A stretch of 46,812 bases of DNA. Origin: Bacteroides sp. (GTDB lineage Bacteria > Bacteroidota > Bacteroidia > Bacteroidales > Bacteroidaceae). This document shows positions 11,398 to 42,627 of this stretch, one piece after another (the stretch's first letter is position 1; the number at the start of each line of letters is the position of its first letter). The stretch is from the NCBI GenBank assembly GCA_017471925.1, contig JAFURM010000044.1, positions 1-46,812 on the forward strand. The letters are read 5' to 3'. The notes below the pieces were generated by a model. That model was not told the DNA's origin. It was given only the letters and a program-made list of their open reading frames with translations, and searched no databases. The translations under genes were made by a program, and so were the position numbers.

Positions 11398-11508
11398 CCC
11401 ATAGAGGCGAGGGCCGATGCCCTATAGAGACGACAGGCGATGCGTATAGGCGTGAGGGGCAGAGCGTATAGGCGTAAGGGGCGGAGCGCATGGAGACGGA
11501 CTATTTTG
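11398..11508. repeat. Degenerate ~22-bp tandem repeat array (array 1)
   Basis: Five units begin at 11398, 11420, 11443, 11465 and 11487 (22, 23, 22, 22 bp). The two best, 11443-11464 and 11465-11486, differ at only two positions; shared words are CGTATAGGCGT and AGGGGC. The outer units are more diverged. The array lies between the divergent promoters of the nitroreductase operon and the GNAT gene. Confidence 0.75.
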
Positions 11509-11542
11509 CGAACAAACAGGCGGATTAATCAATTTAATTTTC

Positions 11543-11550
11543 TATATTTG
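11543..11550 (+). promoter_or_regulatory. -7 box directly ahead of the GNAT gene
   Basis: TATATTTG ends only 5 bases before the ATG at 11556, so transcription would start at or near the start codon (leaderless mRNA). No TTTG -33 at 19 bp spacing. Confidence 0.5.
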
Positions 11551-11555
11551 CGCCC

Positions 11556-12539
11556 ATGCCTCTGAAACTGACAACATATTACCGTGGCAGTCGGATTCCG
11601 GAGCTACCGGGAACCAACACGTTCCACTCCACCGAACTGTTCCGCGTCTACGAGGCGACGCCGGGCTATGAACCCATCCTGGTTGTCGCCAGCGAAGACG
11701 GGCGCCCGCTGGCCAAGCTGCTGGGCACCGTGCGCAAGGCTGTCCGGCTGTTCCCGCCGGGGCTCATCAAGAGGTGTGAAATCTATGACACAGGCGAATA
11801 CTTTGACGAAGCGGCCGACAAAGAGAGCATCTTTGCCGAGATGCTGCACCGACTCACCAGCGTGGCCCTGCGTCACGCCTTCCTCATCGAGGTGCGCAAT
11901 CTGGAGAATCCGATGTTCGGCTACAAGGTGTTCCGAGCCAACCGCTACTTCCCCATCAACTGGCTGCGCGTGCGCAACTCCCTGCACAGCCTGACGCGGG
12001 TGGAGGAACGCTACAGCCCTTCACGCGTGCGCCATGTGCGCAAGGGGCTGAAGAACGGTGCCGTCGTGCGCGAGGCCCGCTCGGTGCAGGAGATACAGGA
12101 GTTTGCCCGTATGCTCCACCGCATCTACTCCTCCAAAATCCGCCGCCACTTCCCCAGTCGTGACTTCTTCACCCACCTGGAGCAGCAGATGCTGCAAGGC
12201 AAGAACAGCAAGACCTTCATCGTGCTCTGCAAGGAGCGCATCATCGGGGGATGCGTCTGCATCTACTCGGGCGAGACGGTCTACCTGTGGTTCTCGGGCG
12301 GGATGCGCAAGCGTCATCCCCACCTCTACCCCGGCGTGCTGCCCGTGTGGAAGGCTATGGAGGATGCCAAGGAGCGCGGGTTCCACCACTTTGAATTTAT
12401 GGACGTGGGCCTGCCCTTCCGGCAACATGGCTACCGCGACTTCGTGTTGCGCTTCGGCGGGAAAGAGTTCGGTACCCGCCGCTGGTTCCGCTTCCGCTGG
12501 AACTGGCTGAACGGCCTGCTGAGCCGCTTCTATAAATGA
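11556..12539 (+). CDS. GNAT/FemAB-like N-acyltransferase
   Basis: This 327-residue cytoplasmic protein fits the GNAT_acetyltransf_6/FemAB-like group. Its C-terminal half (residues ~150-300) has EFARMLHRIYSSKIRRHFP, then KTFIVLCKERIIGGCVCIYSG and HFEFMDVGLPFRQHGYRDFVLRFG, typical of the duplicated-GNAT fold. Such enzymes transfer amino-acyl or acyl groups to cell-wall or lipid acceptors; the substrate here is unknown. It is a single-gene unit with its -7 box nearly abutting the ATG. A convergent amylase gene lies downstream beyond a REP-like palindrome. Confidence 0.82.
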   Translation: MPLKLTTYYRGSRIPELPGTNTFHSTELFRVYEATPGYEPILVVASEDGRPLAKLLGTVRKAVRLFPPGLIKRCEIYDTGEYFDEAADKESIFAEMLHRLTSVALRHAFLIEVRNLENPMFGYKVFRANRYFPINWLRVRNSLHSLTRVEERYSPSRVRHVRKGLKNGAVVREARSVQEIQEFARMLHRIYSSKIRRHFPSRDFFTHLEQQMLQGKNSKTFIVLCKERIIGGCVCIYSGETVYLWFSGGMRKRHPHLYPGVLPVWKAMEDAKERGFHHFEFMDVGLPFRQHGYRDFVLRFGGKEFGTRRWFRFRWNWLNGLLSRFYK

Positions 12540-12584
12540 TTCTACTTCTGCAAATAAAAGAATAGGTGTGTGTCAAATATTGAA

Positions 12585-12673
12585 TTTAGGCACGGATTAC
12601 ACGGATTTTCACAGTTGGATTATAACGTTCGGCTATAAATAATCTGTGTTTATCCGTGTAATCCGTGCCTAAA
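12585..12673. repeat. REP-like long palindrome, copy 1
   Basis: Perfect 22-bp arms (12585-12606 and 12652-12673; core GGCACGGATTACACGGAT / ATCCGTGTAATCCGTGCC) enclose a second pair, CACAG (12610-12614) with CTGTG (12644-12648). It lies between two convergent genes. A related palindrome is at 42127-42198 and an exact single arm at 42868-42889. Confidence 0.9.
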
Positions 12674-12737
12674 ATGTCAATGGCTTGATTTATAACACGC
12701 CCTTGCCCTTAATGACCTTCGGAGGCTGGCGCCTGCA

Positions 12738-15410
12738 TCAGAAAGAGGTGTAGACTACGAAGCTGTGGGCTGGTACGCTGACCTTGGCCCCTATCGTCTC
12801 GGCGGCACCGGTCATATAATCGTTCCAGGTACCCTCAGTCGCTTCCTTGGGCAGGGCAATCTCACGGGTGGCATTCGTGAAGTTGCCCAGTACCATCAGC
12901 TTCTTGCCGGTGACGCTCTCGGAATAGAGTGTACGGCCGTTCAGCCAGTTGCCGCTAAGGTCGGCCTTGGTCGTATTGTCAATCGTGTGTCCCGTATTGT
13001 TCACGCTCCAGCTGAAGGTCGCCTCATCGAAGAGTTCGGGATTATCGTTGCGCAGCTTCATCAACTTGCTGTAGACCTCATACAAGCCTTTGCGGTCGGC
13101 ATTCTCAAAATAGTCCCAGAGGATAGGCTTGCGGCCCGTGCGATGGTCCTCGCCTTCGACCACGACACCCGACTGATTGGCGTTGATGGAGATGTCATAG
13201 CCCAGCTCGCCAAACTGCCAGATCATCTTCGGACCGGGAACCGTCAGGAAGAAGGCGGCATTCACGCTCAGCTGCTTCATGCGATTGGTCAGGTTGGTCT
13301 GCAGGTCATAGTGTCCCCACATCACCTGCTTGTAACCCACGCGCTCCTCGTCGTGGCTCTCCATGAAGCCCACCCAGTTGGGCGTGCTCTTATAGAGATT
13401 GCTGAAGGAGCTGTTTTCGCCCCAGGCCATGCCCGACTGACAGTAGGCGTTGTTCAGGTTGTTCCACATGTGCAGACCGTCCTCGGCCAGTTCGCTCTCC
13501 TCGTTGGAAGCGCAGAAGTGTTCCAGCACGACAAAGGCATCGGGCTTCACCTCCTTGATGGCAGCGTTATAGTCCTTCAGGATGGCAATGCGGCTGGCAT
13601 CATAATTGCCGGCGGTAGCCTCTGTAGACTTGTTCTGCGTGAATCCTTTCGTCAGGTCGAAGCGGAAACCATCGATGTTGTACTCCTTCAGGAGGAACTG
13701 CAGGTTGCGCTTCACGAAGGTACGCACCAGGTCGCTTTCGTGATTGAAGTCGTGATATACACTGTAGGGATGGGGTGCAGAGACGTTGAACCAGGGGTTG
13801 TTCTTGGCCGTGCAGTTGCTGCTGCTGTCCCAATAGAGTTTGGCAAAGGGGTGTGCACCGGTAGCGTGATTGTACACCACGTCGAGGAGCACGGCCATAC
13901 CCTTCTCGTGACAGGCGTCGATGAACTCCTTGTACATCTTCTTTGTTCCGTATGCCTTGTCCATGGCGAAGAAGAAACAGGGGTTATAGCCCCAGCTGTC
14001 GTTGCCGTCAAACTCCTGCACAGGCATCAGCTCAATGGCGTTCACGCCCAGTTCCTTCAGGTAGTCCAGCTTGCTCATGGCACCGTTCAGGGTGCCGTCT
14101 TCCGTAAAGTCACGGAGATGGAGCTCGTAGATGACCAGGTTGTTGGGCTCGGCAATCTTGAAGTCAGCCACCTTCCAGGCATACGTGTCCTGCTGAATCT
14201 TGAAGGTAGAGACCACGCCACGTGCCCCTTCGGGATAGGTCATATCGTCACTGTAGGTAGAGGCCGAAATCCACTTGTCGTTGTCGGGATCCAGCACCTT
14301 CTCCGTGTAGGCATCTGCCAGGCGGGTAGCTCCATCGGCTTCCGTGCCCACATAGTATTGGAAGGCATACTCCTTGGAAGCATCCAGGCCCTTCAGCGTA
14401 ATCCACCAGCATCCCTCGGCCTCATCACGGTACATCTGCGACGTTTCGTCATTGGCCAGGGTCCAGTTGTTGAAGTCGCCCACCACATGGGCATACTCCT
14501 TGTGCTTGCCGTTCGTGTCCTTGTCATAGAGTACGAGGGTCACGGTGGAGTTGTCCACATAGTTGATGCCGTGCTGCAGTCCGCTCGGCATGGCGGCTTC
14601 CTTCACGGTGCCCGGCTTGAAGGCTTCATACGTGGCATCCTTCACGGGGATGAAGAGGTCTTGTGTCTGATAGTAGGCCGTGCTTCCGCTCTTCGTCTCG
14701 CCGCTGCGAATCACAATGCACACCTGAGTAATATGGACGTTTCCGCCAAACCATCCGCGAATCGTGGGGGTCAGGGAAAGGCTCCAGGCATTATCTTCCA
14801 CCTTCGTCATCTTGAACTTGGCTTCATTCTTGCCCCACTCCGTAATGACGTGCTCCCACGTATCCTCGGCACCGGTACCGATATGCACGTAGACATCACC
14901 GGTATAGCCATAAAGTTCCGAAGTCTTGTCGGCTTTATAATAGAAAGTCATCGCAGCATCGGCATCCGGCGTTTCGGGCGAGTAGCTCAGGCCCTCCTTA
15001 AGCGTCACGATCTCCTTGCCTTCGGCAGCCTGGGTCACCTTCAGTTGACGGCTGATGGTGCCGGTGACAAAGGTGATGGTGGCCGTACGTACGGCTCCGC
15101 TCTCGTTCTTGGTAGCAGAGATGGTGGCGTTCACCGTTCCGGCTTCGCCCTGAGACGGAGAGACGGTACACCACGGAGCATTGGAGACAACGGCCTTCCA
15201 ACTCTGTCCGCAGCTGAAAGAGACTGCCTGGAAGGAAGCCTCCTCCTCAAACGTAATGCCGTCATTGAAATAGGGTTCACTGCTCTCGGCAATGGTGAGA
15301 TAGTTCTGGAACTCACTGTCATCATCGCTACATGCCACGAAGCCCGACAGCAAGAAAAGGCACAACAACTGCCACAGGGCAGCATTCTTAAGTTTTTCCA
15401 TCCATTTCAT
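12738..15410 (-). CDS. GH13 alpha-amylase-family lipoprotein with BACON domain
   Basis: This 890-residue protein has a lipoprotein signal (LLSGFVAC, Cys27), so it is probably surface or outer-membrane anchored. A BACON domain spans about residues 55-130 (WKAVVSNAPWCTVSPSQGEAG..RTATITF). A beta-rich module follows (~135-255), then a CBM48-like E-set segment (HVVGDFNNWT, ~307-316), then the GH13 barrel. Catalytic motifs are present: region I DVVYNH, nucleophile Asp585 in GFRFDL, acid/base Glu630 in VVLEH, and Asp687 in ESHDEER. It should cleave alpha-glucans; WGYNP before region I is pullulanase/branching-enzyme-like, so the exact specificity is open. It has its own promoter and is separated from the GH2 gene by a terminator. 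Confidence 0.93.
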   Translation of the reverse strand: MKWMEKLKNAALWQLLCLFLLSGFVACSDDDSEFQNYLTIAESSEPYFNDGITFEEEASFQAVSFSCGQSWKAVVSNAPWCTVSPSQGEAGTVNATISATKNESGAVRTATITFVTGTISRQLKVTQAAEGKEIVTLKEGLSYSPETPDADAAMTFYYKADKTSELYGYTGDVYVHIGTGAEDTWEHVITEWGKNEAKFKMTKVEDNAWSLSLTPTIRGWFGGNVHITQVCIVIRSGETKSGSTAYYQTQDLFIPVKDATYEAFKPGTVKEAAMPSGLQHGINYVDNSTVTLVLYDKDTNGKHKEYAHVVGDFNNWTLANDETSQMYRDEAEGCWWITLKGLDASKEYAFQYYVGTEADGATRLADAYTEKVLDPDNDKWISASTYSDDMTYPEGARGVVSTFKIQQDTYAWKVADFKIAEPNNLVIYELHLRDFTEDGTLNGAMSKLDYLKELGVNAIELMPVQEFDGNDSWGYNPCFFFAMDKAYGTKKMYKEFIDACHEKGMAVLLDVVYNHATGAHPFAKLYWDSSSNCTAKNNPWFNVSAPHPYSVYHDFNHESDLVRTFVKRNLQFLLKEYNIDGFRFDLTKGFTQNKSTEATAGNYDASRIAILKDYNAAIKEVKPDAFVVLEHFCASNEESELAEDGLHMWNNLNNAYCQSGMAWGENSSFSNLYKSTPNWVGFMESHDEERVGYKQVMWGHYDLQTNLTNRMKQLSVNAAFFLTVPGPKMIWQFGELGYDISINANQSGVVVEGEDHRTGRKPILWDYFENADRKGLYEVYSKLMKLRNDNPELFDEATFSWSVNNTGHTIDNTTKADLSGNWLNGRTLYSESVTGKKLMVLGNFTNATREIALPKEATEGTWNDYMTGAAETIGAKVSVPAHSFVVYTSF

Positions 15411-15440
15411 GATTTAGATATTCAAAGTTTATACTTGCCG

Positions 15441-15448
15441 CAAATATA
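15441..15448 (-). promoter_or_regulatory. -7 box of the GH13 amylase gene
   Basis: On the minus strand TATATTTG (15448-15441) lies 30 bases before the ATG. No TTTG sits 19 bases upstream, which suggests the promoter may need an activator. Confidence 0.6.
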
Positions 15449-15477
15449 GGGAAAGAAAGGGAGACATCCGAAGAGGG

Positions 15478-15519
15478 GCAAAATGAAAAAGGCGCAAAGT
15501 TTATGAAAACGTTTGCGCC
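15478..15519 (-). terminator. Terminator of the GH53-GH53-GH2 operon, with embedded operator-like sequence
   Basis: TTTGCGCC (15512-15519) and GGCGCAAA (15491-15498) pair around a 13-nt loop. On the minus strand the hairpin is followed by TTTTTCATTTT, giving an intrinsic terminator 22 bp after the GH2 stop. The loop and right arm contain TGAAAACGTTTGCG (15504-15517), which matches the LacI-type palindrome at 20548-20561 in 12 of 14 positions. Confidence 0.8.
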
Positions 15520-15540
15520 CATCTCATAGAAGACGGTGTG

Positions 15541-18036: not shown

Positions 18037-18041
18037 ATCTT

Positions 18042-19145
18042 TTACTTGTCGTTATATGCTTCTGTCAATGCCTTCATGATGTCGCCGGCCTTGCCGTCAT
18101 CGCCAAATCCGCCCATGTTATAGGAGGGCCATCCCAAACCGTCGTAGCAGGCAGGCTTCCATCCGCCATACACCTGCGGCTCCCAATAGAAGACGCCCTT
18201 GCAGACCTCCTTGGCCTCGTTGTGCATCAAGCCCATGAAATGCCTCAGGGTATTGATAGCCTCCTGGCCGGTCTCCGGCTTCACGCCCACCTCGCTTATC
18301 ATCACGGGCAGCTGATAGGTGGAGGCCCACGTCTGTACGTTCCTCAGGGCCAGTTCGTTCATCTCCTTCCAGGACTTGTCCCGATGCATCTGGGGATAGT
18401 GGGAAAGGGCTATCATGTCTGTCTTTCCGCCTCGTTTGGCAAACTCGGCCAGCCACCAGGAGTTGGTCTCCGTGTCCCAGGCATTGTCGATGTGAATCAT
18501 CACCAGGGCCTGGGGACAAGCCGCCTTGGCTGCCTCGTAGCCGGCATTGCTCAGGGCTACATAGTTGTCCCATCCGCCCTCCACCGGACCTTCACTGTCA
18601 TAGAGCCGGCCCACGGGATGCAACATGCCGGGACGGGTCTCATTGCCCACCTGTATCCACTTGGGAGTGACATCGACGGCCTTCAAGGCATCCAGCACCT
18701 CCGTGGTGTGTCCGGCCACGGCCTTCTTCAATCCCTCTACATCCAATCCTTCCCAGTCGGCAGGAATCTCCTGACGGCTGGGGTCGGCAAACCAGTCGCT
18801 GTAGTGGAAGTCTATCATCACCTCCATACCCTGCGCCTTGGCACGCCGGGCGGCTTCCACCACACTCGCCTTGTCACTGCACTTAGCCTGATAAGGGCTC
18901 TTGGAAGAGTCTACCCACACCCTCAGGCGGATGGCATTGACTCCAGCCTCTTTCAACACTTCATAGCAATCGGCTTCCGTTCCGTCGGCCTTGTAGAAGG
19001 GTACGCTGTCGGCCTCCATTTCGGCCAGCCAACTGATGTCCGCACCTTTGGCAAAGTCTTCCGGTTGCTCCGCCGGCTTCTCCGCACACCGGGCGGCAAG
19101 CAGCATCAGGGCCGCAGCCCCTATCCATTGTATCATTCTGTTCAT
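18042..19145 (-). CDS. GH53 endo-beta-1,4-galactanase lipoprotein (second in operon)
   Basis: This 367-residue protein has a lipoprotein signal with Cys20 (LLAARC). The GH53 barrel starts with FAKGADISWLAEME and continues NAIRLRVWVD and MIDFHYSDWFADPS. The acid/base is Glu169 in IQVGNETRPG and the nucleophile Glu285 in VMISEVGV. The C-terminal KGVFYWEPQVYGGW motif is typical of the family. GH53 enzymes cut beta-1,4-galactan side chains of pectin (type I arabinogalactan). It lies 20 bp after a GH53 paralogue and 5 bp before GH2. The two paralogues share motifs but differ throughout, so the duplication is old or one copy was acquired. Confidence 0.94.
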   Translation of the reverse strand: MNRMIQWIGAAALMLLAARCAEKPAEQPEDFAKGADISWLAEMEADSVPFYKADGTEADCYEVLKEAGVNAIRLRVWVDSSKSPYQAKCSDKASVVEAARRAKAQGMEVMIDFHYSDWFADPSRQEIPADWEGLDVEGLKKAVAGHTTEVLDALKAVDVTPKWIQVGNETRPGMLHPVGRLYDSEGPVEGGWDNYVALSNAGYEAAKAACPQALVMIHIDNAWDTETNSWWLAEFAKRGGKTDMIALSHYPQMHRDKSWKEMNELALRNVQTWASTYQLPVMISEVGVKPETGQEAINTLRHFMGLMHNEAKEVCKGVFYWEPQVYGGWKPACYDGLGWPSYNMGGFGDDGKAGDIMKALTEAYNDK

Positions 19146-19165
19146 ACCTTATATATATAATGAGA

Positions 19166-31004: not shown

Positions 31005-31105
31005 CCCCGTTTCGTCCATACACGTGTGGTGCTTGGACGAGACATGTGTGGTCCGTCGTCCACACATGTCTCGTCCACGGACCGCACGTGTCCCGTCCAA
31101 CGGGG
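31005..31105. repeat. Four-unit 22-bp tandem array folding into a ~100-bp hairpin (array 2)
   Basis: Units at 31013, 31035, 31057 and 31079 are each exactly 22 bp and share ACAYGTGT and GTCC words. Neighbouring units are inverted, so 31034-31051 pairs perfectly with 31060-31077 (18 bp, 8-nt loop), 31021-31030 with 31081-31090 (one G:U), and CCCCGTT (31005-31011) with AACGGGG (31099-31105). It lies between the convergent ABC permease and metY genes. Confidence 0.9.
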
Positions 31106-31156
31106 ATAAAAGGGGCTTCAAAAACGAGGGCGCAAACCGTGCCTCAAACGCCCATG

Positions 31157-32552: not shown

Positions 32553-33560
32553 ATGAACAAGATATACCGCCTTTTGCTCCTCCTTCTCCTTGCCTTGCCC
32601 ACGGCGGCCCAAGAAAAGGCCGAGCGGGCCGAGCCCAAAGCCGGCGAGGGCATCACCGCCTTCCTGCTGCGTCATGGCCGGAAGGGGAAAGCCTGCCATG
32701 AAGCATTCCTGGAACTGAACAAGACAGTCTTGCGCGGCAAGGAGGAGTTGCGCCTCGGCGTGAGCTATCTCCTGCCTCCCCTGGAGGAGAAGGGGGGAAA
32801 GGCGGAAGCTGATGCTCCCCGAACACGCCAGGAGCCGCTCTTCGGCCAACAGCTGAAGCAGGTGGACATCACGGGAAACCGTCTGAAGGGAGCCTGCTTC
32901 TACATTGTCAGCGGGCATGGCGGTCCCGACCCCGGCGCCATAGGATATGTAGGAGGACGGGAACTGCACGAAGATGAGTATGCCTACGACATTGCGCTAC
33001 GCCTGGGTCGCAACCTGATGCAGCAGGGGGCCGAAGTGCGCATCATCATACAGGACAAGAAGGACGGCATCCGCGACGACAAATACCTGAAGAACAGCAA
33101 GCGAGAGACCTGCATGGGGCAGGCCATTCCCCTGAACCAGGTGGAGCGCCTGCAGCAACGCTGCGCCACCATCAATGAACTCTACCGCAAGGACAAGAAG
33201 AAGTTCAGCTATTGCCGGGCCATCTTTCTGCACGTGGACAGCCGGAGCAAGAATGCACAGGTGGACGTCTTCTTCTATCATGCGCCCGGAAGCGACCAAG
33301 GCGAACAGTTGGCCACCCGCATGAAGAAGACCTTCGAATCGAAATATGACAAGCACCAGCCCAACCGCGGCTTTGAAGGCACCGTCAGCGAGCGCAATCT
33401 CTACGTCCTGCGCTCCACCGCTCCGGTGGCCCTCTTCGTGGAACTCGGGAACATACAGAACAGCTTCGATCAACGGCGGTTTGTCATCAGTTCCAACCGT
33501 CAGGCCCTTGCCAAGTGGATGACAGAGGGATTCATCACCGACTTCAGCGACAGGAAATAA
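32553..33560 (+). CDS. N-acetylmuramoyl-L-alanine amidase with LysM-like domain
   Basis: This 335-residue protein has a Sec signal peptide (LLLLLLLALPTAAQ). A short LysM-like segment lies at about residues 31-77 (GEGITAFLLRHG ... ELRLGVSYLLPP). The Amidase_3 domain runs from ~115 to 330: zinc ligands His122 (VSGHGGPDPGA), Glu near 140 (ELHEDEYAYDIA) and His227 (IFLHVDSR), and catalytic Glu297 (LFVELGNI). It cleaves the amide between MurNAc and the stem peptide in the periplasm. It has a single-gene layout. The decayed fimbrillin gene runs toward it and reads into its antisense strand. Confidence 0.93.
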   Translation: MNKIYRLLLLLLLALPTAAQEKAERAEPKAGEGITAFLLRHGRKGKACHEAFLELNKTVLRGKEELRLGVSYLLPPLEEKGGKAEADAPRTRQEPLFGQQLKQVDITGNRLKGACFYIVSGHGGPDPGAIGYVGGRELHEDEYAYDIALRLGRNLMQQGAEVRIIIQDKKDGIRDDKYLKNSKRETCMGQAIPLNQVERLQQRCATINELYRKDKKKFSYCRAIFLHVDSRSKNAQVDVFFYHAPGSDQGEQLATRMKKTFESKYDKHQPNRGFEGTVSERNLYVLRSTAPVALFVELGNIQNSFDQRRFVISSNRQALAKWMTEGFITDFSDRK

Positions 33561-34568
33561 GCGGGCGTTTTTTTGCATTTTATCCGTATTAGGAAACCAC
33601 AGTTTTTGCATTTTATCCGTATTATGCAGAATAATTTCGTATATGGAAAAGCCACTGAATACGTCGTTGTCGCACACCCCATCTTCATCGCCCAATGGCA
33701 AGGCAAGCACGTATGCGGTGTACACCGAACCCTTCTGCACGGCGGTGCCGTTTTCGCCCAACAGCGTTGTAATCGCGGCATGAGTAGCTTGGCTGAAAGT
33801 GAGGTTTCCTTTATGATCGACAGTGGCCGACCGGGAGGCCACGGGCTGTGCATCGGCCAGCGACACCCGGACGCTCTTGATGGTGGTCATCTCTGCCGGA
33901 CGCTTGTTGGTGATGATGAAGCGGAAGGTGGCGGGGATGTGCCTGAACGCAAGCGATGCACTGCCGTCGGCAATGGTGCTCGTGGCATACATATACATAT
34001 AGTCGCGCAAGAACTCCGGCTTTTGCTTCGCTGCCTGCGTGAGTGTGTCGGGCATCGGCATGGTGGCACTGAAGGCTTCAGCACTGCCCGACACGGCAGA
34101 ACCGTTGTCTGCACAGAGCGGAGTGACGGCCACGACCGTGCAACCGTCATACTGACCGCTCGATAGCTTGTGTTCATAGGTCTCCACGGTCTCAAACGCT
34201 GCCCAGTGTTTGTCGTCGACATGCTGGCTGTGCGGCTTGACGTTGGCATAGGTGTGATGCTTTCCGGCAGTGCTTGCCAGGAGTGCGTCACTCACGAATG
34301 CCATCACCATCTCATCGCCCACCGTATTTGCGGGCGTATACTCCCACTGGAATATCAGGCTGCCCGAGCCTTTGTCGTCACTCCAGACAGCACGGGTGCC
34401 GGGCTCAACGCCCACACCTCCGCCAAAGGTCAAGTGATAGGCCTCGGCGGGTGTGGCAGGCACATCCGGCACATCGGGTACCATCGGCCCGTTCTCTTCA
34501 CTGCTGCAAGCGGCGAAAAGCCCGGCCGCGACAGTCAAAGTCAAGAGTATGCTATGTCTTGTCATCAT
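33561..34568 (-). pseudogene. Fimbrillin-family-like lipoprotein gene, C-terminus lost
   Basis: From ATG 34568 the product has a lipoprotein signal (LFAACSS, Cys21), a VPDVPDVPATPAEAY linker, then HLTFGG, a long beta-rich segment (SLAFRHIPATFRFIITNKRP, TTIKSVRVSLADAQ) and AYVLALPLGDEDG, as in fimbrillin/Mfa-like proteins. After about residue 310 the sequence becomes an 11-residue repeat (NTDKMQK twice) encoded by a duplicated 22-mer, and then the frame continues ~190 codons through the antisense of the amidase gene. The natural C-terminus, which fimbrillins need for strand exchange, is therefore gone. It may still produce a fused lipoprotein; I call it a pseudogene. It is preceded by a microprotein gene and a leader with a terminator. 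Confidence 0.7.
33570..33624. repeat. Direct repeat of 22 bp, 33 bp apart, at the fimbrillin gene breakpoint
   Basis: The same 22-mer (containing GCATTTTATCCGTATTA) occurs at 33570-33591 and 33603-33624, separated by GGAAACCACAG. The 33-bp period keeps the reading frame (11 codons). It marks where the fimbrillin homology ends. Confidence 0.85.
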
Positions 34569-34602
34569 ATCCAATCCGTTGAAAAGGTTATTGCCTAAGT
34601 TT

Positions 34603-34731
34603 CTAAGGCTCAGAATCATCGCTGTCCGGGCCATTGCCGGTTAAAGACTGCGCGAAACCGCGTTCCACTTCCACGACCTCCACGCGGGGAGCCTCGTAGT
34701 TTTCCATGTAGGTGAATTCTTTTTTGTTCAT
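34603..34731 (-). CDS. 42-residue microprotein upstream of fimbrillin-like gene
   Basis: The ATG at 34731 opens a 42-codon frame ending TAG at 34603: MNKKEFTYMENYEAP, then RVEVVEVERGFAQS, then an acidic end with DSDDSEP. Small proteins of the YEAP..EVVEVE type commonly precede fimbrillin or lipoprotein genes in Bacteroidota, in my experience, so I consider it real. The fimbrillin-like gene starts 34 bp downstream. The function is unknown. It is too short for routine gene calling. Confidence 0.65.
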   Translation of the reverse strand: MNKKEFTYMENYEAPRVEVVEVERGFAQSLTGNGPDSDDSEP

Positions 34732-34765: not shown

Positions 34766-34811
34766 CAAAAAATGCCACCCGCCGCATCACGAAATGATGC
34801 AGCGGATGGCA
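34766..34811 (-). terminator. Leader terminator/attenuator ahead of the microprotein-fimbrillin unit
   Basis: Arms 34773-34789 and 34795-34811 form a 17-bp stem that on the minus strand has only two non-Watson-Crick pairs, both G:U. On the plus strand the same pairs are C-A mismatches, so the structure is built for minus-strand RNA. TTTTTTG follows (34772-34766). It lies 35 bases before the microprotein ATG. Confidence 0.8.
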
Positions 34812-34985
34812 CGTTTTGCAGCCGCTCTGAGCCGTTTTCTTGGCGGGAGGCCCGTTTCACCCCCCGATTATTTAGACACAACACATTGGCCGCCAATGCG
34901 TTATACGCGAGACTTTACACAGGAGATGGGGTATGTGGCCGATAGAGCTGTTGCATATTGTTTTTGTTTCGTCAAATTCTCGTTG

Positions 34986-34993
34986 CAAAAATA
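34986..34993 (-). promoter_or_regulatory. Candidate -7 box for the fimbrillin-like unit
   Basis: TATTTTTG on the minus strand. It would give a leader of about 215 nt up to the leader terminator. The leader includes a 13-codon frame starting at ATG near 34955 (MQQLYRPHTPSPV) and the palindrome CATTGGCGGCCAATG. Confidence 0.45.
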
Positions 34994-35088
34994 GGGAAAT
35001 CCCGGAAATATCAGGCATAGGGGGAGGCGTTTTTTTCGTTGCCGTTTGTTTCTTTTTACCCCCCTTTTGTTACCTGCCCCCCTCTTCC

Positions 35089-35188
35089 GGAACTACACGC
35101 GGTTTCCGCCGGAACTGCACGCGTTTATTCCAGAAATTGCGTGCAATTTCCAATGGAATTGCACGCTGTTCCGGAAGGAATTGCGTGC
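35089..35188. repeat. Five-unit 22-bp tandem array (array 3)
   Basis: The 12-bp core GGAATTGCRYGC recurs at 35089, 35111, 35133, 35155 and 35177, exactly 22 bp apart each time, as GGAACTACACGC, GGAACTGCACGC, GAAATTGCGTGC, GGAATTGCACGC and GGAATTGCGTGC. Units are linked by TTTCC-type spacers. Neighbours can pair, e.g. GCGTGCAATT (35140-35149) with AATTGCACGC (35157-35166). The rest of the 533-bp gap 34732-35264 holds the leader described above, a pyrimidine-rich stretch and the phosphohexomutase terminator. Confidence 0.92.
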
Positions 35189-35241
35189 AAAAAACAAGGG
35201 CTGAAAGTCCGCCTGTCAAACAAGCAAGCTTTCAGCCCTTG
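35189..35241 (-). terminator. Terminator of the phosphohexomutase gene
   Basis: CAAGGGCTGAAAG (35195-35207) pairs perfectly with CTTTCAGCCCTTG (35229-35241). On the minus strand the hairpin is followed by TTTTTTG. It lies 24 bp after the stop codon and abuts array 3. Confidence 0.9.
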
Positions 35242-35264
35242 GATATTTGTTATTTATCCGTTTG

Positions 35265-37010
35265 TCAGATGCCTAAGGAAGCCCTTACGGCCTGCACCTT
35301 CTCGTCGGCTTCGGCAGAAGCGGCGGCGTAGCACTTGGGACATCCCATTTCGCCCTTCACCTCTACATAGAACTTGATCTTAGGCTCTGTGCCGGAGGGG
35401 CGGACGGATATCTTCGTGCCATCTTCCGTGAAGTATTGCAGCACGTTGCTGGTTTCGGGCATCACGATGTCGCTCACGCAGCCCTCACCGTCAGTGGCCT
35501 TCAGGGTCTTGTAGTCCTTGGCCAGCACCACCTTGGAGCCTCCGATTTCCTTGGGCGGATTGGCACGGAAGTTCTCCATCATGGCCTTGATTTCATCTGC
35601 ACCGCTCTTGCCGGGCTTCACCACGTTCACCGTGGTTTCCTTGGAGAAGCCATATTCCACGTAGATTTCCATCAGGATGTCATAGAGCGTCTTGCCCTGG
35701 TCCTTGGCCCAGGCACAGATTTCGGCCAGCAGTGTGCAGGCAGAGACGGCATCCTTGTCGCGCACGAAGTCTTCGGCCAGGAAGCCATAGCTCTCTTCGC
35801 CACCGCCGATGTACTGCTGCTTGCCCTCGCTCAGGCGGATTTCGCGGGCAATCCACTTGAAGCCGGTGTAGCAGTCGCGCATCTCGATGTTGTTCTTGTC
35901 GGCCACGGCCTTGATGAGTTCAGTGGTCACGATGGTCTTCACGATGAAGTCCGTGTCCTTCATCTTGCCCATGGCCTTGCGGTTCTTGATGATGTAGTAG
36001 AGGAATATCAGGCAGGTCTGGTTGCCGTTGATGAGCACCCACTCGCCCTTGTCGTCCTTGCAGGCCATGCCTACACGGTCGGCATCGGGGTCGGTGGCCA
36101 TCACGATGTCGGCGTCGATGCTCTTGGCCAGGGCTATGGCCATGGAGAGAGCCTCGGCATTTTCGGGATTGGGGGAAACGACGGTGGGGAAGTCTCCGCT
36201 CTTCACCATCTGCTCGGGCACGCAGTGCACGTTCTCAAAGCCCCACTGCTTCAGTGCGCGGGGCACGAGCATCATGCCTGTGCCATGAATCGGCGTGAAG
36301 ACAATGCTGAGGTCCTTCTGACGCCGGATGACTTCGGGGTCGATGGAGATGGTGTGCACCTTGTCCAGATAGACGCCGTCCACGTCTTCACCGATGATTT
36401 GGATGAGTTCCTTGTTGCCCTCGAACTTGATGTCGGCAGCGGAGGCAATCTTGTTCACCTCGTCAATGATGCCCTTGTCGTGAGGGGCGAGCACCTGTGC
36501 GCCGTCGTCCCAATAGGCTTTGTAACCATTATACTCCTTCGGATTATGTGAGGCGGTCAGAATGATGCCGCTCTGACATCCCAGGTGTCGGATGGCGAAT
36601 GACATTTCGGGAGTGGGGCGCATGTCTTCAAAGAGATAGACCTTAATGCCGTTGGCCGAGAAGATGTTGGCCGAGATTTCCGCGAAGAGGCGGCTGTTGT
36701 TGCGGCAGTCGTGACCGATGCAGACCGAGATTTGCTCCAAGCCGGCAAAGTTCTTGTTCAGATAGTTGGAGAGTCCCTGCGTGGCCGCACCTACGGTGTA
36801 GATGTTCATGCGGTTGCTGCCTACGCCCATGATGCCGCGCAAACCGCCCGTACCAAATTCCAGGTCTTTGTAGAAGCACTCGATGAGTTCGGTCTTGTCT
36901 TCATTTTCCAACATGCGTTTCACCTCTGCCTGAGTTTCGGCGTCATAGGCCGGAGTCAGCCACTTCCGGGCCTTCTCAGTGACTTGCTTAATCAGTTCCT
37001 GATTTTCCAT
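35265..37010 (-). CDS. Phosphohexomutase (phosphoglucomutase/phosphomannomutase, PgcA-like)
   Basis: This 581-residue cytoplasmic enzyme interconverts glucose-1- and glucose-6-phosphate (possibly also mannose phosphates). Motifs: GTGGLRGIMG, phosphoserine loop TASHNPKEYNGYK (Ser154), metal loop DPDADRVG (~residue 320), sugar loop GGGEESYG, and phosphate loop RPSGTEPKIKF. The length fits the ~580-residue group typified by B. subtilis PgcA. The ATG at 37010 (MENQELIKQV) is chosen; a longer in-frame version would start close to the -7 box. It has its own promoter and terminator. Confidence 0.94.
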   Translation of the reverse strand: MENQELIKQVTEKARKWLTPAYDAETQAEVKRMLENEDKTELIECFYKDLEFGTGGLRGIMGVGSNRMNIYTVGAATQGLSNYLNKNFAGLEQISVCIGHDCRNNSRLFAEISANIFSANGIKVYLFEDMRPTPEMSFAIRHLGCQSGIILTASHNPKEYNGYKAYWDDGAQVLAPHDKGIIDEVNKIASAADIKFEGNKELIQIIGEDVDGVYLDKVHTISIDPEVIRRQKDLSIVFTPIHGTGMMLVPRALKQWGFENVHCVPEQMVKSGDFPTVVSPNPENAEALSMAIALAKSIDADIVMATDPDADRVGMACKDDKGEWVLINGNQTCLIFLYYIIKNRKAMGKMKDTDFIVKTIVTTELIKAVADKNNIEMRDCYTGFKWIAREIRLSEGKQQYIGGGEESYGFLAEDFVRDKDAVSACTLLAEICAWAKDQGKTLYDILMEIYVEYGFSKETTVNVVKPGKSGADEIKAMMENFRANPPKEIGGSKVVLAKDYKTLKATDGEGCVSDIVMPETSNVLQYFTEDGTKISVRPSGTEPKIKFYVEVKGEMGCPKCYAAASAEADEKVQAVRASLGI

Positions 37011-37062
37011 AAGAATACTGTTATTTAAAGTTATACATCTATTTCCATTAACTGTCAATATG

Positions 37063-37070
37063 CAAATATA
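37063..37070 (-). promoter_or_regulatory. -7 box for the phosphohexomutase gene
   Basis: TATATTTG on the minus strand (37070-37063), 52 bases before the ATG; no clear TTTG upstream. Confidence 0.55.
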
Positions 37071-37161
37071 GGGATTTAGTTTGAACTCCTGCCATTTAGT
37101 GAGATAAAAAAAACAACTTGGGAAGGATTACTTTGTCATCCCCACGCATCCGGACATCGCG

Positions 37162-38805
37162 CTACTCGGTAATCAGATAGCGTTCGCCCGTCTGCTTCAC
37201 ATATTCTTCCAGGAACTCCTTGGGGAATCCCGGACGGATGACCGGAGCGGGTTGGCCGATGGCGTTGCGCTCGAACTGTCCGTCCTTCACCCGCTTCACC
37301 ACGCCGTCGTTGAACTTCACGACGAAGAATTCGCCCAGGCGTTTCCAGGCATCGACGGTGCTCTGGGCCGAGAGTTCGGTGTAGTTGGTCAGGAAGGTCT
37401 TGGCCTTGGCGGGGTCTTTCTCCCACAGGCGCAGGGCGGCTGTCTCAATGCCCTCCTGTGCATCGCTGAAGGTGGTCTCCAGGCTGCTCTGCACAGCACG
37501 CACATCGGGCATCATCAGGTCGTAGCGGGGATAGACCATGTTGGCCACCCAGTTGTATATCCAGAAGGCCGACTTCCAGGAGAAGGTGACGTAGTCGGCT
37601 CCCTCCACACGGCTGTAGCACTGGGGCACCCTGTCCGTGCAGCAATAGACGGGGGTGAAGACGGTCATGTTGGCATCGTCGTTGCCAAACCAGAGCACGC
37701 CGCCCACGGGGTCGGGCATGGAGGAGCGCATCTGTGCCACGAAGACGAAGCCGCTCTGCTGGGTGGAGATGGGGCGTTCGTTGAAGTACTCCTTGCCCTC
37801 GTGCTTGAAGGAGAGAGGCGACAGGCGGTAGGGGGTGTGATAGGCTCCGGCGCCGAAGTCGTTGCTGATGTCTAACGGGGTGCCTTCATAGTGGTCGCGC
37901 ATGGCCTGGCGGATGTCCTGAACGGAAATCTTGCGGTTGGGCTTCAGATAGAGGGGCATGGGGGTGTCGCTCTGTCCCTGGATGTAGGGCAGGAACTCGC
38001 TGCCGCGGTCGGTGAACATGTTGTAGTAGCTCCACACGCGGGCCTCGCAATAGCGGCGTGCACCGAAGTCGAGCGGTGCATAGGCATTGGCGAAGCTGAA
38101 GTCCTTGTTCATGCCGTCGAAATACTTCTTCTCGCGGGCAAAGGAGATGACATCGGGGGAATAGAGGCAGTTCTCCTTGTCGTTCAGGTCGAAACGGTGG
38201 ATGCGGCTCTGGTTGGCATGGGCCGCGATGCAGTCGTCAGGGATGCGTATGGCCACCCACACGGCACCGCGCACGCCAGGTCCCTTGCCTATCATCTCCA
38301 TGATCCACACCTCGTTGGGGTCGGCAATGGTGAACGACTCACCGCTGCTGTAGTAGCCATACTCTTCCACCAGGCCGGTCATCACCTTGATGGCCTCGCG
38401 GGCGGAGGTGGAGCGCTGCAGGGCCAGGTAAATCAGGCTTCCATAGTCGATGACGCCGGTCGTGTCCACCAGTTCGGGCCGTCCGCCGAAGGTGGTCTCG
38501 GCGATGGTGAGCTGATATTCGTTCATGTTGCCGATGACGTTGTAGGTCTGGCGGGCCTGCTCAATCTGGCCGAGATACTTGCCCGTGTCCCACTCGTAAA
38601 CATCCACCATCGTGCCTTTCTTGTGGATGCCGGCAGGATAGTGATACAACTCGCCGAACAGACCATAGGAGTCGGCGGAATAGGAGACGATGGTGGAGCC
38701 ATCGGCCGATGCGTTCTTGCCCACGATGAGGTTGGTGCAAGCCAGGGAGCTTGCAACGGAGAGCGCGAGCATCAGGATAAGGGAAAAGATACTTTTCATG
38801 TTCAT
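37162..38805 (-). CDS. C69-family dipeptidase (PepD-like Ntn hydrolase)
   Basis: This 547-residue protein has a Sec signal peptide (IFSLILMLALSVASSLA). Cleavage before Cys23 would expose the catalytic N-terminal Cys of the mature enzyme (CTNLIVGKNASADGS), as in C69/U34 dipeptidases. Other family features are TIAETTFGG, EEYGYYSSGESFTIADPNEVWIMEMIG, and RIPDDCIAAHANQSRIHRFD. It is expected to cleave dipeptides in the periplasm. Two possible ATGs (38805 and 38799) differ by two residues. It lies 27 bp downstream of the M23 peptidase gene, so the two are probably co-transcribed. Confidence 0.93.
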   Translation of the reverse strand: MNMKSIFSLILMLALSVASSLACTNLIVGKNASADGSTIVSYSADSYGLFGELYHYPAGIHKKGTMVDVYEWDTGKYLGQIEQARQTYNVIGNMNEYQLTIAETTFGGRPELVDTTGVIDYGSLIYLALQRSTSAREAIKVMTGLVEEYGYYSSGESFTIADPNEVWIMEMIGKGPGVRGAVWVAIRIPDDCIAAHANQSRIHRFDLNDKENCLYSPDVISFAREKKYFDGMNKDFSFANAYAPLDFGARRYCEARVWSYYNMFTDRGSEFLPYIQGQSDTPMPLYLKPNRKISVQDIRQAMRDHYEGTPLDISNDFGAGAYHTPYRLSPLSFKHEGKEYFNERPISTQQSGFVFVAQMRSSMPDPVGGVLWFGNDDANMTVFTPVYCCTDRVPQCYSRVEGADYVTFSWKSAFWIYNWVANMVYPRYDLMMPDVRAVQSSLETTFSDAQEGIETAALRLWEKDPAKAKTFLTNYTELSAQSTVDAWKRLGEFFVVKFNDGVVKRVKDGQFERNAIGQPAPVIRPGFPKEFLEEYVKQTGERYLITE

Positions 38806-38832
38806 AAATCTATTTGTCTTTTTGATTGTTGG

Positions 38833-40548
38833 TTACCAGATAAAATCGTAGTGCTTCACCGTGGTGTTACCACACTCGTCGGTGACGGTCAGCTGCAGTC
38901 GGTGCTTTCCTCCGCGCTTCAGGCGTTGGGGGTCCAGGCGGCAGACCAGGCGGCCGTCGATGGCGTTCAGACGGCCGAAGAGGACGAAGCGGCCGTCTAT
39001 CTCGCCGCGGTAGGAGGTGATGCCGGTCTCCGCGTCCTTGGCCTTCACCGTGATGCGGCCGCTGCGTCCCCAGCTGTTCTGTCCGATGGGGGTGAGGCGG
39101 GGCGGCAGGGTGTCCACAGCCACGGTGTAGGTGCCCAACTCGCGTATGCGGGCTTTCATGAAACCGCCTTCGTAGCGTCCGCCCACGCTGTGCTTCCGCC
39201 CACGTTCATCCACGCGGGCCACATAGTATTTGGTGGAGTCAGCCAGCGGATGGCGCCGCAAGCCGATGCTCAGCTCGGCATAGTCATGCAGGGGCACACG
39301 GGCAGTGTGCAGACGGTAGGTGTAGGCCACGGCGGCACTGTCGACCGTCAGGGCATAGTCCAAGGGCACATCGTCATAGAGCAGGCCGCGCGGGATGTGC
39401 AGGGTGAGGCCCAGGTCCTGCAGGGTGTTCGGCCGGTCCCAGTGCAGGAAATGCTTGGCCCGATGTTCCGGAACGGCGGTCTCCGTCTTCTTTCCGTGTA
39501 TCGTGAAGGCCACGCGGGTTGTGTTGCCCAGGGCGTCGCTCAGGGTATAGCACAGGCGGTAGGGCCGCTCTTCGTCAATGGTGACCACGCCCCGGTTGTC
39601 GTTGGCAGCATGGAGCAGGCGCAGGCGGTTGCCTGGCTCAATGAAGGACTTCATGTATTGTCCCTCCGTCCAGGAGTTGATGTAGCGGTGTTCGTCGTAG
39701 GAGAAGCGGTCCACCACGCTGCGGCACACCTCTCGGCCGTCCACCTCGAGGATGACCGTGTGCACGCCATAGCGGTTGTGCACCCCGTTCATATAGTCAT
39801 AAGCCTTTATGCCGAAACCAATCTCGCCCCAAGCGGTCACGCTCTCTTTGGGGTGCAGGGGGAAGCGTTGCGGCACGGACTTACCGTTGACCGTGCCCCG
39901 TCCCCGCCGGGGGAACAGCATGAGGCCCTCGGCACGGGGCGGAGTGGTGTCGTCCAAGCGGCCGGCAAAAAAGGGGAGCGGGTCCACATAATCGCCCGTG
40001 GCCGTCTCGATGAGTTCCATGTGGAGATGGGGGCCGAAGGAGTAGCCCGTGTTTCCGCCCAGGGCGATGACCTCGCCGGCCTTCACCGGATATTCCCCCG
40101 GCCGGGCCTCGATGGTGACCTCCCAGTTCTCCTGATCATACTGCAGGGCCTCCACGCGGCGGGCCACGTCGCCCATGAAGGCACTGAGGTGACGGTTGAT
40201 GGCCGTGTAGCCGTTGTCATAGACCACGTCCAACACCAGACCCGAGCCGTGCGTCACCCTGATGCGCGACAGGTAGCCGTCGGCCAAGGCACGTATGGGC
40301 TTGCCGCTGACGCCGCCGGTCTTGAAGTCCAGGCCGCCATGGAAATGATCGGTGCGAATCTCGCCGAAGTTGCCCGACAGGAGGAGCGGACGCTCCACGG
40401 GTGACGCGAAGGAGATCGGCGCCTGCAGCGTGTCGGCCTGCGCATGGCCGCGCACCGTGGGAAGGACCGACAGCGTGCAGTAAAGGAGAGCCGGAGAAAG
40501 CCGCCTCCACACCTTATATATATATAGGGAGAGGGAATCACTCTTCAT
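38833..40548 (-). CDS. M23-family metallopeptidase (LytM-like)
   Basis: This 571-residue protein has an N-terminal hydrophobic signal (LSPALLYCTLSVLPTVRGHAQA). The LytM domain covers ~55-190: zinc ligands His70 and Asp74 in HFHGGLDFKT, His120 (INRHLSAF), and His176 in PHLHMEL. This should be an active glycyl/DD-endopeptidase acting on peptidoglycan. The C-terminal ~380 residues are beta-rich with Ig-like features and may bind the wall or a partner. The start overlaps the stop of the DUF4738 gene by 11 bp, so translation is coupled. Confidence 0.92.
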   Translation of the reverse strand: MKSDSLSLYIYKVWRRLSPALLYCTLSVLPTVRGHAQADTLQAPISFASPVERPLLLSGNFGEIRTDHFHGGLDFKTGGVSGKPIRALADGYLSRIRVTHGSGLVLDVVYDNGYTAINRHLSAFMGDVARRVEALQYDQENWEVTIEARPGEYPVKAGEVIALGGNTGYSFGPHLHMELIETATGDYVDPLPFFAGRLDDTTPPRAEGLMLFPRRGRGTVNGKSVPQRFPLHPKESVTAWGEIGFGIKAYDYMNGVHNRYGVHTVILEVDGREVCRSVVDRFSYDEHRYINSWTEGQYMKSFIEPGNRLRLLHAANDNRGVVTIDEERPYRLCYTLSDALGNTTRVAFTIHGKKTETAVPEHRAKHFLHWDRPNTLQDLGLTLHIPRGLLYDDVPLDYALTVDSAAVAYTYRLHTARVPLHDYAELSIGLRRHPLADSTKYYVARVDERGRKHSVGGRYEGGFMKARIRELGTYTVAVDTLPPRLTPIGQNSWGRSGRITVKAKDAETGITSYRGEIDGRFVLFGRLNAIDGRLVCRLDPQRLKRGGKHRLQLTVTDECGNTTVKHYDFIW

Positions 40549-41077
40549 AGGGTTCTTCCATCATTTCCTGTTTCTCTACAGTGATTTTTCCATCGGCAGC
40601 GATGGCCACGCTCAGGGGGACGTAGAGATCCGACTGGGGATAGCACAGGGTTACGGCATAGTGAATGGCCTGAGGGGTCACCTTGTCGAAGATGAATCCC
40701 TCCAGGATGGCATGTTTCAGGAAGTCCACGCTCACCCAAGGGGCAAAATAGTTCTTGGTGAAGGTCTTCTCCACCAGAGCCTTGCCACCCGAAAGCAGCT
40801 GCAAGGTAACCTCATTGTCCACGAAAAGTTCTCCCTGCTCGTTCTTCACGAGGGGGAGGTCGTTGTTGGGCCGCCGCGTCAGGATGGAGTGCCAGGTCTT
40901 CCCCTTGAAGGCAATCTCGTCACTCGCCGACACCGGCTCCATCTGCTGGGGAGGTCTGGTCTTTTCTCCATCCAGCATCAGGACGCGAATGCCGCTCTCC
41001 TCCTTTCCCTGTCGCGAGCCGCAAGCCGCCAACAACAGGAGCAACCCACCGGCCAGACATAAAATCAATCGTTTCAT
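40538..41077 (-). CDS. DUF4738-type lipoprotein
   Basis: This 179-residue protein has a lipoprotein signal with Cys19 (LLLLAAC). The mature part (WHSILTRRPNNDLPLVKNEQGELFVDNEVTL ... KNYFAPW) resembles a Bacteroidota family I know as DUF4738, of unknown function. I use the ATG at 41077, which gives the lipobox and follows the -7 box; an upstream frame extension carries no signal. It overlaps the M23 gene, so it may be a partner or substrate-binding factor for that peptidase. Confidence 0.8.
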   Translation of the reverse strand: MKRLILCLAGGLLLLLAACGSRQGKEESGIRVLMLDGEKTRPPQQMEPVSASDEIAFKGKTWHSILTRRPNNDLPLVKNEQGELFVDNEVTLQLLSGGKALVEKTFTKNYFAPWVSVDFLKHAILEGFIFDKVTPQAIHYAVTLCYPQSDLYVPLSVAIAADGKITVEKQEMMEEPYEE

Positions 41078-41102
41078 TGCGCAATCTTTGAATTTGAAAA
41101 GA

Positions 41103-41110
41103 CAAAGATA
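41103..41110 (-). promoter_or_regulatory. -7 box for the DUF4738-M23-C69 unit
   Basis: TATCTTTG on the minus strand (41110-41103), 25 bases before the ATG. Confidence 0.6.
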
Positions 41111-41147
41111 GCGAGATTTCATTGAATACAGAAATCTACTTCCAGTT

Positions 41148-41327
41148 TTAGAGTCTGTTTTGAATTTATTCCATTCTTTTATTATTCGCTTTCCATGAGT
41201 CTCTTTTCGGCTCTTTTGTCCGTTCTTTCTCGTCACATAGCCCGCTATGCTCCTTGAAAGAACAAACACAAAATATCTCGAAAAGAGTCCTCATAAAAAG
41301 GCTGAATAAATTCAAAACAGACTCTTA
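41148..41327. mobile_element. MITE-like element with 21-bp terminal inverted repeats and TTA duplication
   Basis: Exact 21-bp inverted ends (41151-41171 and 41304-41324; GAGTCTGTTTTGAATTTATT and complement) enclose 132 bp. TTA on both sides (41148-41150, 41325-41327) looks like a target duplication. The interior is also palindromic: GTTCTTTC with GAAAGAAC, and ATAGC-CC-GCTAT near the centre. It has no coding capacity, so it would need a transposase from elsewhere. Confidence 0.85.
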
Positions 41328-41334
41328 AGCGAAA

Positions 41335-41390
41335 AGTCTTCTATACAATTGATAGTTGACAGTTGATAATTGATAGTTGATAATTATTCC
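41335..41390. repeat. TTGATAGTTGATAATTGA-type short repeat, copy 1
   Basis: GATAGTTGA and GATAATTGA words alternate after AGTCTTCTATA. An inverted copy with the same order, including TATAGAAGACT, is at 42889-42942, and a shorter copy at 42664-42700. Confidence 0.7.
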
Positions 41391-41553
41391 CCTCTCATCC
41401 CTGCCTAAAAAACTATACTTCTCTTTTAAAATGTTAATGTTAAAGGCGAGCGTTAAACCAATGCTTTCCCGGGTTGTCATAGATACGTTGCAACACAATA
41501 GGTATTATAAACATAGAACGTATTAACATTTAAAAGAAAAGGAGAACAGAACA

Positions 41554-42090
41554 ATGAAAAGAATAGCAATGATGTTGATGGCCGCCTTCTTCGTAGGCGG
41601 AGTGATGATGGCCCAGCCGGGTCGTCGTGGTGAAGGCAAGATGCAAGACCCCAAGGCGCATGCCGAGCGCATGACCGAGCGCATGGCCAAGGAGTATGGC
41701 CTGGACGATGCACAGAAGGCGAAGCTCCTGGAGGTGAACATGGCCTGGGTCGAAAAGATGGGCAGCATGAGACCGCCGCGCGGCATGAAGAGACCCGCCC
41801 CGGAAAAGGCTTGCTGTGACTCATGCACGTGCGCCAAGGAGAAGAAAGGGGGCAAGGAGGCCAAGCGTCAGCCCAAGGCCGACAAGCGTCCCCAGCTGAC
41901 CGACGAACAGCGTGCGCAGATGAAGGCCGAGCGGGAGAAACGACAGACCGACATGCAGGCCGCCCGTCAGGAGTATGACGCACAGCTGCAGCAAATCATG
42001 ACGAAGGAGCAGTATGCCGCCTACACCAAGAAGATGCAGGAGCGCAAGGAGAAGGCCGGCAAGCGTCCCGACAGAGGCGAAAGAGAGTGA
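41554..42090 (+). CDS. DUF4890-type periplasmic protein (Spy/CpxP-like) with Cys cluster
   Basis: This 178-residue protein has a Sec signal (MKRIAMMLMAAFFVGGVMMAQ). The mature part is helical and strongly basic/Met-rich, with two copies of a KEYGLDDAQKAKLLEVN / LTDEQRAQMKAEREKRQ pattern, like Spy/CpxP chaperones and the DUF4890 family. An insert at residues 87-93 reads CCDSCTC, unusual for these families and suggestive of metal or thiol chemistry. A good ribosome site (AAAGGAGAA) precedes the ATG. It stands alone between repeat-rich regions. Confidence 0.82.
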   Translation: MKRIAMMLMAAFFVGGVMMAQPGRRGEGKMQDPKAHAERMTERMAKEYGLDDAQKAKLLEVNMAWVEKMGSMRPPRGMKRPAPEKACCDSCTCAKEKKGGKEAKRQPKADKRPQLTDEQRAQMKAEREKRQTDMQAARQEYDAQLQQIMTKEQYAAYTKKMQERKEKAGKRPDRGERE

Positions 42091-42126
42091 CGACAGCACT
42101 CAAGAATGCGTGTCATTCCACAGGTG

Positions 42127-42198
42127 AAGGCACGGATTATGCGGATTCCGCATTGCTTACAATGTAAACATTATTCGAATCCGCAAAATCCGTGCCTT
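42127..42198. repeat. REP-like palindrome, copy 2
   Basis: Arms 42127-42148 and 42177-42198 (AAGGCACGGATT .. GCGGATTC / GAATCCGC .. AATCCGTGCCTT) pair with one mismatch around GCATTG-ctta-CAATGT. The core is shared with copy 1 at 12585-12673, but the inner six bases differ. It lies 37 bp after the DUF4890 gene and may terminate it. Confidence 0.85.
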
Positions 42199-42452
42199 TG
42201 TCGTGTTCTGCCTGTTGCGCAACGTCGGTTGTCACCTGACAGTCCGGGGTTGCGCTTCGCTTGTCGTCGGGGTGTGAAGCGGACGAACTGTCTGTATGTC
42301 CTTGCTTCATGCCACGACAGGCGCGGATTCCTCTCAAAAAAACTGAAGTTTCAGGAAGTAGCGGAAAATATTCTTATTCACCTGTGTATGAAGCGATTAA
42401 GCCTCACTCTCAACTTTATCACACAAAAAACCTTACACCACCCAAGTGCTGA

Positions 42453-42627
42453 GCCGCTGAGCACCTCAGCGTTAAGCCGCTGAACACTCGAGTGCTCAGC
42501 GGCTGAGCTATATAACCACTCATTAGCTGAGCGCCACCACCACTCATTAGCTGAGCACTTCGGGGTTCGTTGCTCTCGCGACGAGGTACTCATTAGCGGA
42601 GTGCTACCACCGTTCAGCGGTTCAACA
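42453..42627. repeat. Degenerate ~23-bp tandem array (array 4)
   Basis: GCTGAG/GCTGAA/GCGGAG words recur at 42456, 42479, 42502, 42526, 42550 and 42596 (steps 23, 23, 24, 24, 46). They come with CATTAGCTGAGC, CTCAGCGG and TTCGGGGTTC words; inverted CTCAGC/GCTGAG pairs allow hairpins. The 851-bp gap 42091-42941 also holds the REP palindromes, short AT repeats and a small palindrome GTCGGCAAGCCGAC (42808-42821). I see no convincing gene in it. Confidence 0.75.

Follow-up and report, generated by a model that had tools for sequence, protein, structure and literature searches.

Dispersed families of intergenic elements with a step of about 22 bp in a Bacteroides genome and its congeners

Bacterial MITEs in general are small, non-coding, multi-copy elements with inverted ends. 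BrickBuilt of Porphyromonas gingivalis (PMC4596501) is a MITE/minisatellite of 23-nt tandem repeats without spacers, present in 19 dispersed intergenic copies; its sequence was found only in P. gingivalis and P. gulae, long stem-loops are predicted from it, and the copies hold 1 to 22.8 repeats, with a unique leader/tail of up to ~300 nt and IS5-like terminal repeats. REP/BIME and the GTAG- and CGTC-tagged repeats (PMC3733652) are short dispersed extragenic palindromes in many families; most REPs occur alone or as head-to-head dimers and carry a terminal tetranucleotide tag on one side, clusters are frequent among the GTAG repeats, and CGTC repeats are reported in Bacteroidetes without a dedicated transposase. 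For the arrays described below, BrickBuilt is the closest known case, and the open-licence literature, searched at the level of titles and abstracts, yielded none that describes intergenic arrays with a ~22-bp period throughout Bacteroides.

Four arrays in the window

The window analysed here, the whole stretch of 46,812 nucleotides, is one contig (C22) of a Bacteroides assembly of 2.87 Mb in 59 contigs (89% complete). An initial annotation had described within it four intergenic arrays with a step of about 22-23 bp. We examined their periodicity by self-match at fixed lag, taking the best of lags 8-60 and comparing it with 2000 dinucleotide shuffles; gene borders were those of our own hexamer caller, not of a curated annotation. 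The features were as follows.

11398 to 11508, no strand assigned: array 1, ~5 degenerate units of 22-23 bp, clear palindromy absent
31005 to 31110, plus strand: array 2 with its ends, a family-2 element of four imperfect palindromes with centres every 22 bp
35085 to 35195, minus strand: array 3, a family-3 element of 22-bp units with a TGCACGCA-like core
42441 to 42560, plus strand: recurrent part of array 4, a family-4 element with units of ~23-24 bp around GCTCAGC-S-GCTGAGC
42561 to 42627, no strand assigned: remainder of array 4, degenerate, periodicity without independent support

The claimed step was borne out for arrays 1-3, each with a best lag of 22: array 1 gave 42/89 matches, equalled by 5/2000 shuffles, and arrays 2 (31013-31100) and 3 (35089-35188) gave 45/66 and 48/78 matches, each equalled by 0/2000, so that chance was rejected as the source of these three. 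It failed for array 4 taken whole (42453-42627), which is not one periodic array, since 245 of the 2000 shuffles equalled its best lag of 24 (54/151 matches); TRF divides it into two blocks, 42445-42506 (period 23) and 42502-42556 (period 24), and its first ~120 bp were found again elsewhere in the genome. All four arrays lie outside the genes called by the hexamer caller, in agreement with their placement between genes by the initial annotation; a 125-aa ORF at 42106-42483 in the mechanical ORF list overlaps the start of array 4 and was dropped by that caller. Array 1 occupies the divergent gap between ORFs at 10779-11351 (minus) and 11556-12539 (plus); array 2, whose ends are short, inverted and partly conserved, is in a convergent gap; and array 3 sits downstream of a phosphoglucomutase-like gene at 35265-37058 (minus). 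Arrays 2 and 3 are built of imperfectly palindromic units, in keeping with the description of their neighbouring units as inverted, and the statement that units are unrelated between arrays stands because own-genome searches with each array gave no match to the other three. A CRISPR array was rejected, the units being abutting and degenerate, versus identical repeats with unique spacers.

Other features were recorded in passing. The Bacteroidetes small RNA FopS (Rfam RF04319; 25854-25925, plus strand, above its gathering score) was the only match of the Rfam covariance models in the window, with none on the arrays; FopS was also found in the relative locus L118, and at ten other loci the arrays matched only microRNA models, far below gathering scores. 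A class of repeats with 7-bp units (TTGATAG/AATTATC type; TRF periods 7, 14 and 17) lies near array 4, at 41345-41385, 42665-42699 and 42889-42945, and also at other places in the genome. A 545-aa ORF on the minus strand (32997-34634) was without Pfam match and was dropped by the hexamer caller; paralogs of it, together with a conserved ~400-bp upstream flank, are present at C29:38746-39202 and C5:45508-46023. A further 22-bp hairpin-like family, of the GATTGCCAGTGAG type, occupies two genome places, L143 (the C29 paralog) and L152:13873-13915.

Dispersed families and a conserved register

Arrays 2-4 belong to multi-copy families, a membership beyond what the reading of a single window could show. 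Family 2 occupies at least 40 places in its own genome (40 of 48 candidates scored), copies L133 and L139 having surfaced later through TRF; family 3 occupies 8 places at E <= 0.05, and family 4 occupies 7 at E <= 1e-3, with profile matches as well; each count includes the window. Five family-3 profile matches are full-length, all of 102 bp, and three are shorter. For array 1, BLAST of its own genome gave no further place better than E 0.1, and a profile gave three weak relatives (L082:2370-2422, L035:1297-1359 and L068:1506-1553). At these three places the array-1-type units are separated from family-2 arrays by no more than about 30-140 bp, and the places look as if two array families adjoin. 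Family 2 had one weak match in 148 other genomes of the genus; family 5, taken from the locus of a relative, had 2-14 matches per genome in 9/12 genomes searched, a tenth (G012) matching only through 26 flank bases. There are many such families, each multi-copy within one species or clade. The proposal that length is fixed while sequence is free held in part: a step of ~22 bp is shared by unrelated sequences and is common in the genus, both by TRF and by a TRF-free census, but within one family the sequence is not free, the arrays being copies of dispersed elements.

Two families, 2 and 5, were analysed in detail; in both, the element consists of four imperfect palindromes with centres every 22 bp and inverted ends, and one of the two adds further 22-bp units outside. 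Family-2 similarity ends with the four 22-bp units plus the short inverted ends. Within the elements the register is gap-free at high substitution, and spacing is conserved far better than sequence. The alignment of 29 family-2 copies (L133, L137 and L139 included; L083, which is partial, and L088 excluded) held 386 mismatches to the consensus and zero gaps in columns 13-98, and that of family 5 (29 rows x 200 columns) held 1600 mismatches and zero gaps, both being built from copies that were retrieved because they resembled a single profile, a procedure that favours undamaged ones. The family-5 rows include orthologous copies, 19 rows being left at <90% identity, and exclude L234 (G126, inner units changed). 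Outer AT-rich units extend on both sides in 22-bp register, fading symmetrically. Two nearby non-coding control alignments held 8 indel events per 39 substitutions and 4 per 18. Slippage alone, one generating mechanism put forward by the initial annotation, is thus insufficient, since 29 dispersed copies with 386 mismatches show no gap while the controls show indels; a structural role for the two-turn step, suggested there also, or a binding role fits better.

With BrickBuilt, which belongs to an order-level relative, these elements share tandem 22-23-bp repeats without spacers, dispersal in intergenic copies, species-specific sequence and predicted long stem-loops. They differ in that the aligned families have about four units, against 1 to 22.8 repeats; one genome contains several unrelated families with this step, which is common to a genus. 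Where BrickBuilt has a unique leader and tail and IS5-like ends, family 2 has short inverted ends and G012 has a ~345-bp element round its array; aligned occupied and empty sites gave no clean junction indicating a target-site duplication. With generic MITEs, families 2 and 5 share small size, lack of coding, multiple copies and inverted ends, whereas the register here is conserved without indels. With REP/BIME they share short, dispersed extragenic palindromes in many families; unlike REPs, the units stand in phased clusters of ~four, and by eye no tetranucleotide tag is common to families 2-5, the CGTC of family 2 falling within paired arms. The RAYT transposase (Y1_Tnp, PF01797) was rejected as driver: none was found in this genome (G000, 89% complete) or in eight array-bearing congeners (G003, G007, G009, G014, G017, G020, G021 and G024); Y1_Tnp was present in 11/60 genomes of the genus, including the array-bearing G005 and G012.

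Period and orthologous sites across the genus

TRF reported a period of 21-24 for 23/50 intergenic arrays in this genome (83 kb intergenic, window excluded) and for 31/67 in 204 kb from 17 congeners (period 22 alone accounted for 18, and three of the 67 had period 44), compared with 2/17 in 80 kb from 13 genomes of other families in the order; congeners differed from the other families with a Fisher p of 0.011, to be read with the reservation that arrays from the same family do not count as independent. At least one such array was present in 12 of the 17 sampled congeners, and in this genome TRF-visible arrays of period 21-24 had a density of about one per 26 kb (23 in 589 kb). Sampling of this genome began with the first 20 kb of C1-C17 (13/30 arrays at 21-24) and was later extended to other contigs; leaving out L137, L151 and L152, which overlap places known from prior searches, gave 19/44, and the congener count minus six stretches holding a phosphoglucomutase match was 25/53. 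The commonest TRF period in this genome was 23 (11 arrays) versus 22 (8), and steps of 23 or 24 occur in several arrays. Of the outcomes that had been named as speaking against a preferred length, neither evenly spread periods nor absence of arrays in relatives without length preference was seen when this genome and its relatives were checked.

In the TRF-free census a best lag of 21-24 was found in 18/204 intergenic segments here, 33/397 in congeners and 2/160 in other families, against 0, 0 and 3 periodic segments after shuffling. Harmonics were seen at 44 and 46, and neither 11 nor 33 gave a peak, so that the step corresponds to two turns rather than to an arbitrary number of them. A period bias of TRF was rejected for periods 12-33, over which 46-56 of 60 planted arrays were recovered (recovery drops from 36 up), and shuffled intergenic pieces gave no TRF arrays for this genome and nearly none for the others; the E. 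coli control was one 50-kb stretch. In G005 an intergenic tandem array with a 41-bp unit in 5.7 copies was recorded (L180:1909-2141); according to PMC4596501, the repeats of P. gingivalis MITE464/PgRS are likewise of 41 nt.

Different sequences occupy one orthologous site. In the gap between the same two genes at a transporter site, 9 of 12 species had arrays of several sequence types, a proportion that is not a frequency because the species were hand-chosen from 110 genomes with a match, three of them for an apparently empty gap. Lag 22 or 23 was the best in 8/9 of these arrays.

G012: 23-bp units with a GATGAGCATC core, inside a ~345-bp element
G101, G106, G143, G162, G009 and G126: 22-bp units with a ACGGCCGTG core
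G001: 22-bp units with a CAC-N4-GTG core
G069: units of a different sequence, with 43 as the best lag and 22 as the second

Two inner units of G126 belong to the outer type, with the register unchanged. In G108, G122 and G097 the gap is 45-88 bp and the array is absent. Downstream of the phosphoglucomutase gene, arrays were found in G000, G007, G005 and G002 among 20 genomes (this one included); those of G005 and G002 are weaker (4/300 and 1/300 mononucleotide shuffles were as good), and G006 and G023 had low-complexity 21-bp rows only. No site conservation is therefore claimed there.

Gene context, pairing and explanations

Arrays are rarer in divergent gaps, which hold 7/64 arrays versus 80/324 of all gaps (p 0.014), and array 1, in a divergent gap, runs counter to this shortage. 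Family 2 is commoner in convergent gaps (14/28 versus 33/155, p 0.0037). A consensus palindrome test was passed at p <= 0.05 by 7/23 arrays of period 21-24 here and 7/31 in congeners; palindromes are therefore enriched and not required, since 14/54 arrays of period 21-24 pass compared with 1/30 at other periods.

One reading of these features is that the arrays form stacked RNA hairpins after transcription, for 3'-end protection, operon attenuation or bidirectional termination. The palindromic units of several families, the frequency of family 2 in convergent gaps and the long hairpin into which the family-5 consensus folds would suit it, but we consider it unlikely, as many arrays are non-palindromic and no Rfam family fits. 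Compensatory pairing was searched for in families 2 and 5 and the opposite was found: complementarity of adjacent half-arms by Watson-Crick pairs fell below the column-independent expectation, which disfavours selection for RNA hairpins, and with GU pairs allowed the deficit persisted in all tests but one (family 2 intra-unit, plus strand, not significant). Among distant arm pairs of family 5, arms 0-5 (z +3.5) and 2-7 (z +2.2) were positive, few among the many pairs tested, and no conclusion is drawn from them. The deficit between adjacent half-arms suggests that perfect palindromes are avoided in the arrays. Perfect palindromes are attacked by nucleases such as SbcCD, and this is perhaps the cause of the avoidance.

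A second group of readings concerns how the repeats arose. It is quite improbable that the arrays are traces of a replication or repair enzyme of the genus that makes ~22-bp tandem duplications, even though near-perfect two-copy duplications of 22-24 bp were seen in non-coding DNA (L012:16071-16116, L017:450-506, L135:2846-2889, L100:7426-7472 and L120:7802-7846) and unit number differs beside the paralogous flanks of array 3 (~5 in the window, 2-3 at C5, none clear at C34). Six of the 18 near-perfect (>=95%) intergenic arrays listed for this genome and its congeners have a period of 22-24, and to this extent the generating mechanism of the initial annotation keeps a footing. Dispersed families with a fixed, gap-free number of units speak against such a duplication step, as does the fact that the elements have ends and outer units in common, by which whole arrays were copied. 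We likewise hold it improbable that these are ordinary MITEs, mobilised by the transposase of an IS and merely carrying the 22-bp repeats along as passengers. G012 does have three ~345-bp copies, 90-93% identical, with the array central, and BrickBuilt has IS5-like ends (PMC4596501); however, family-2 similarity stops at the array ends, the comparison of occupied and empty sites was without clean target-site duplication, and passengers would be expected to lose register through indels.

We give about an even chance to the explanation that the arrays are dispersed, REP/MITE-like elements in which selection maintains the two-turn step via an oligomeric protein reading one face of the helix. The dispersed families, the period common in the genus, the gap-free register, the different sequences at one orthologous site and the shortage in divergent gaps are observed; the protein is inferred. 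Each ~22-bp unit would be a putative DNA site on one helix face, two turns from the next, and an oligomeric protein with touching neighbours would bind the phased units, so that the step would be kept. Copies may spread as non-autonomous REP/MITE-like elements, and may be tolerated, or used, away from promoters. Counting against this explanation are the divergent gap of array 1, the many non-palindromic arrays, the several steps of 23 or 24 and the bias of the gap-free alignments towards undamaged copies. A bolder form of it, which we put forward tentatively and regard as somewhat doubtful, is that what is inherited is the geometry rather than the sequence: units of 22 bp (~2 x 11) would stay in register while their sequence changes from one species or family to another, and the protein would read phased, deliberately imperfect palindromes.

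Should selection act on the register, an unrecognised class of element would be present in many intergenic gaps of the genus. Evolution would in that case be keeping the geometry of DNA while its sequence changes, leaving a sequence-independent signature that could be scanned for in any genome.
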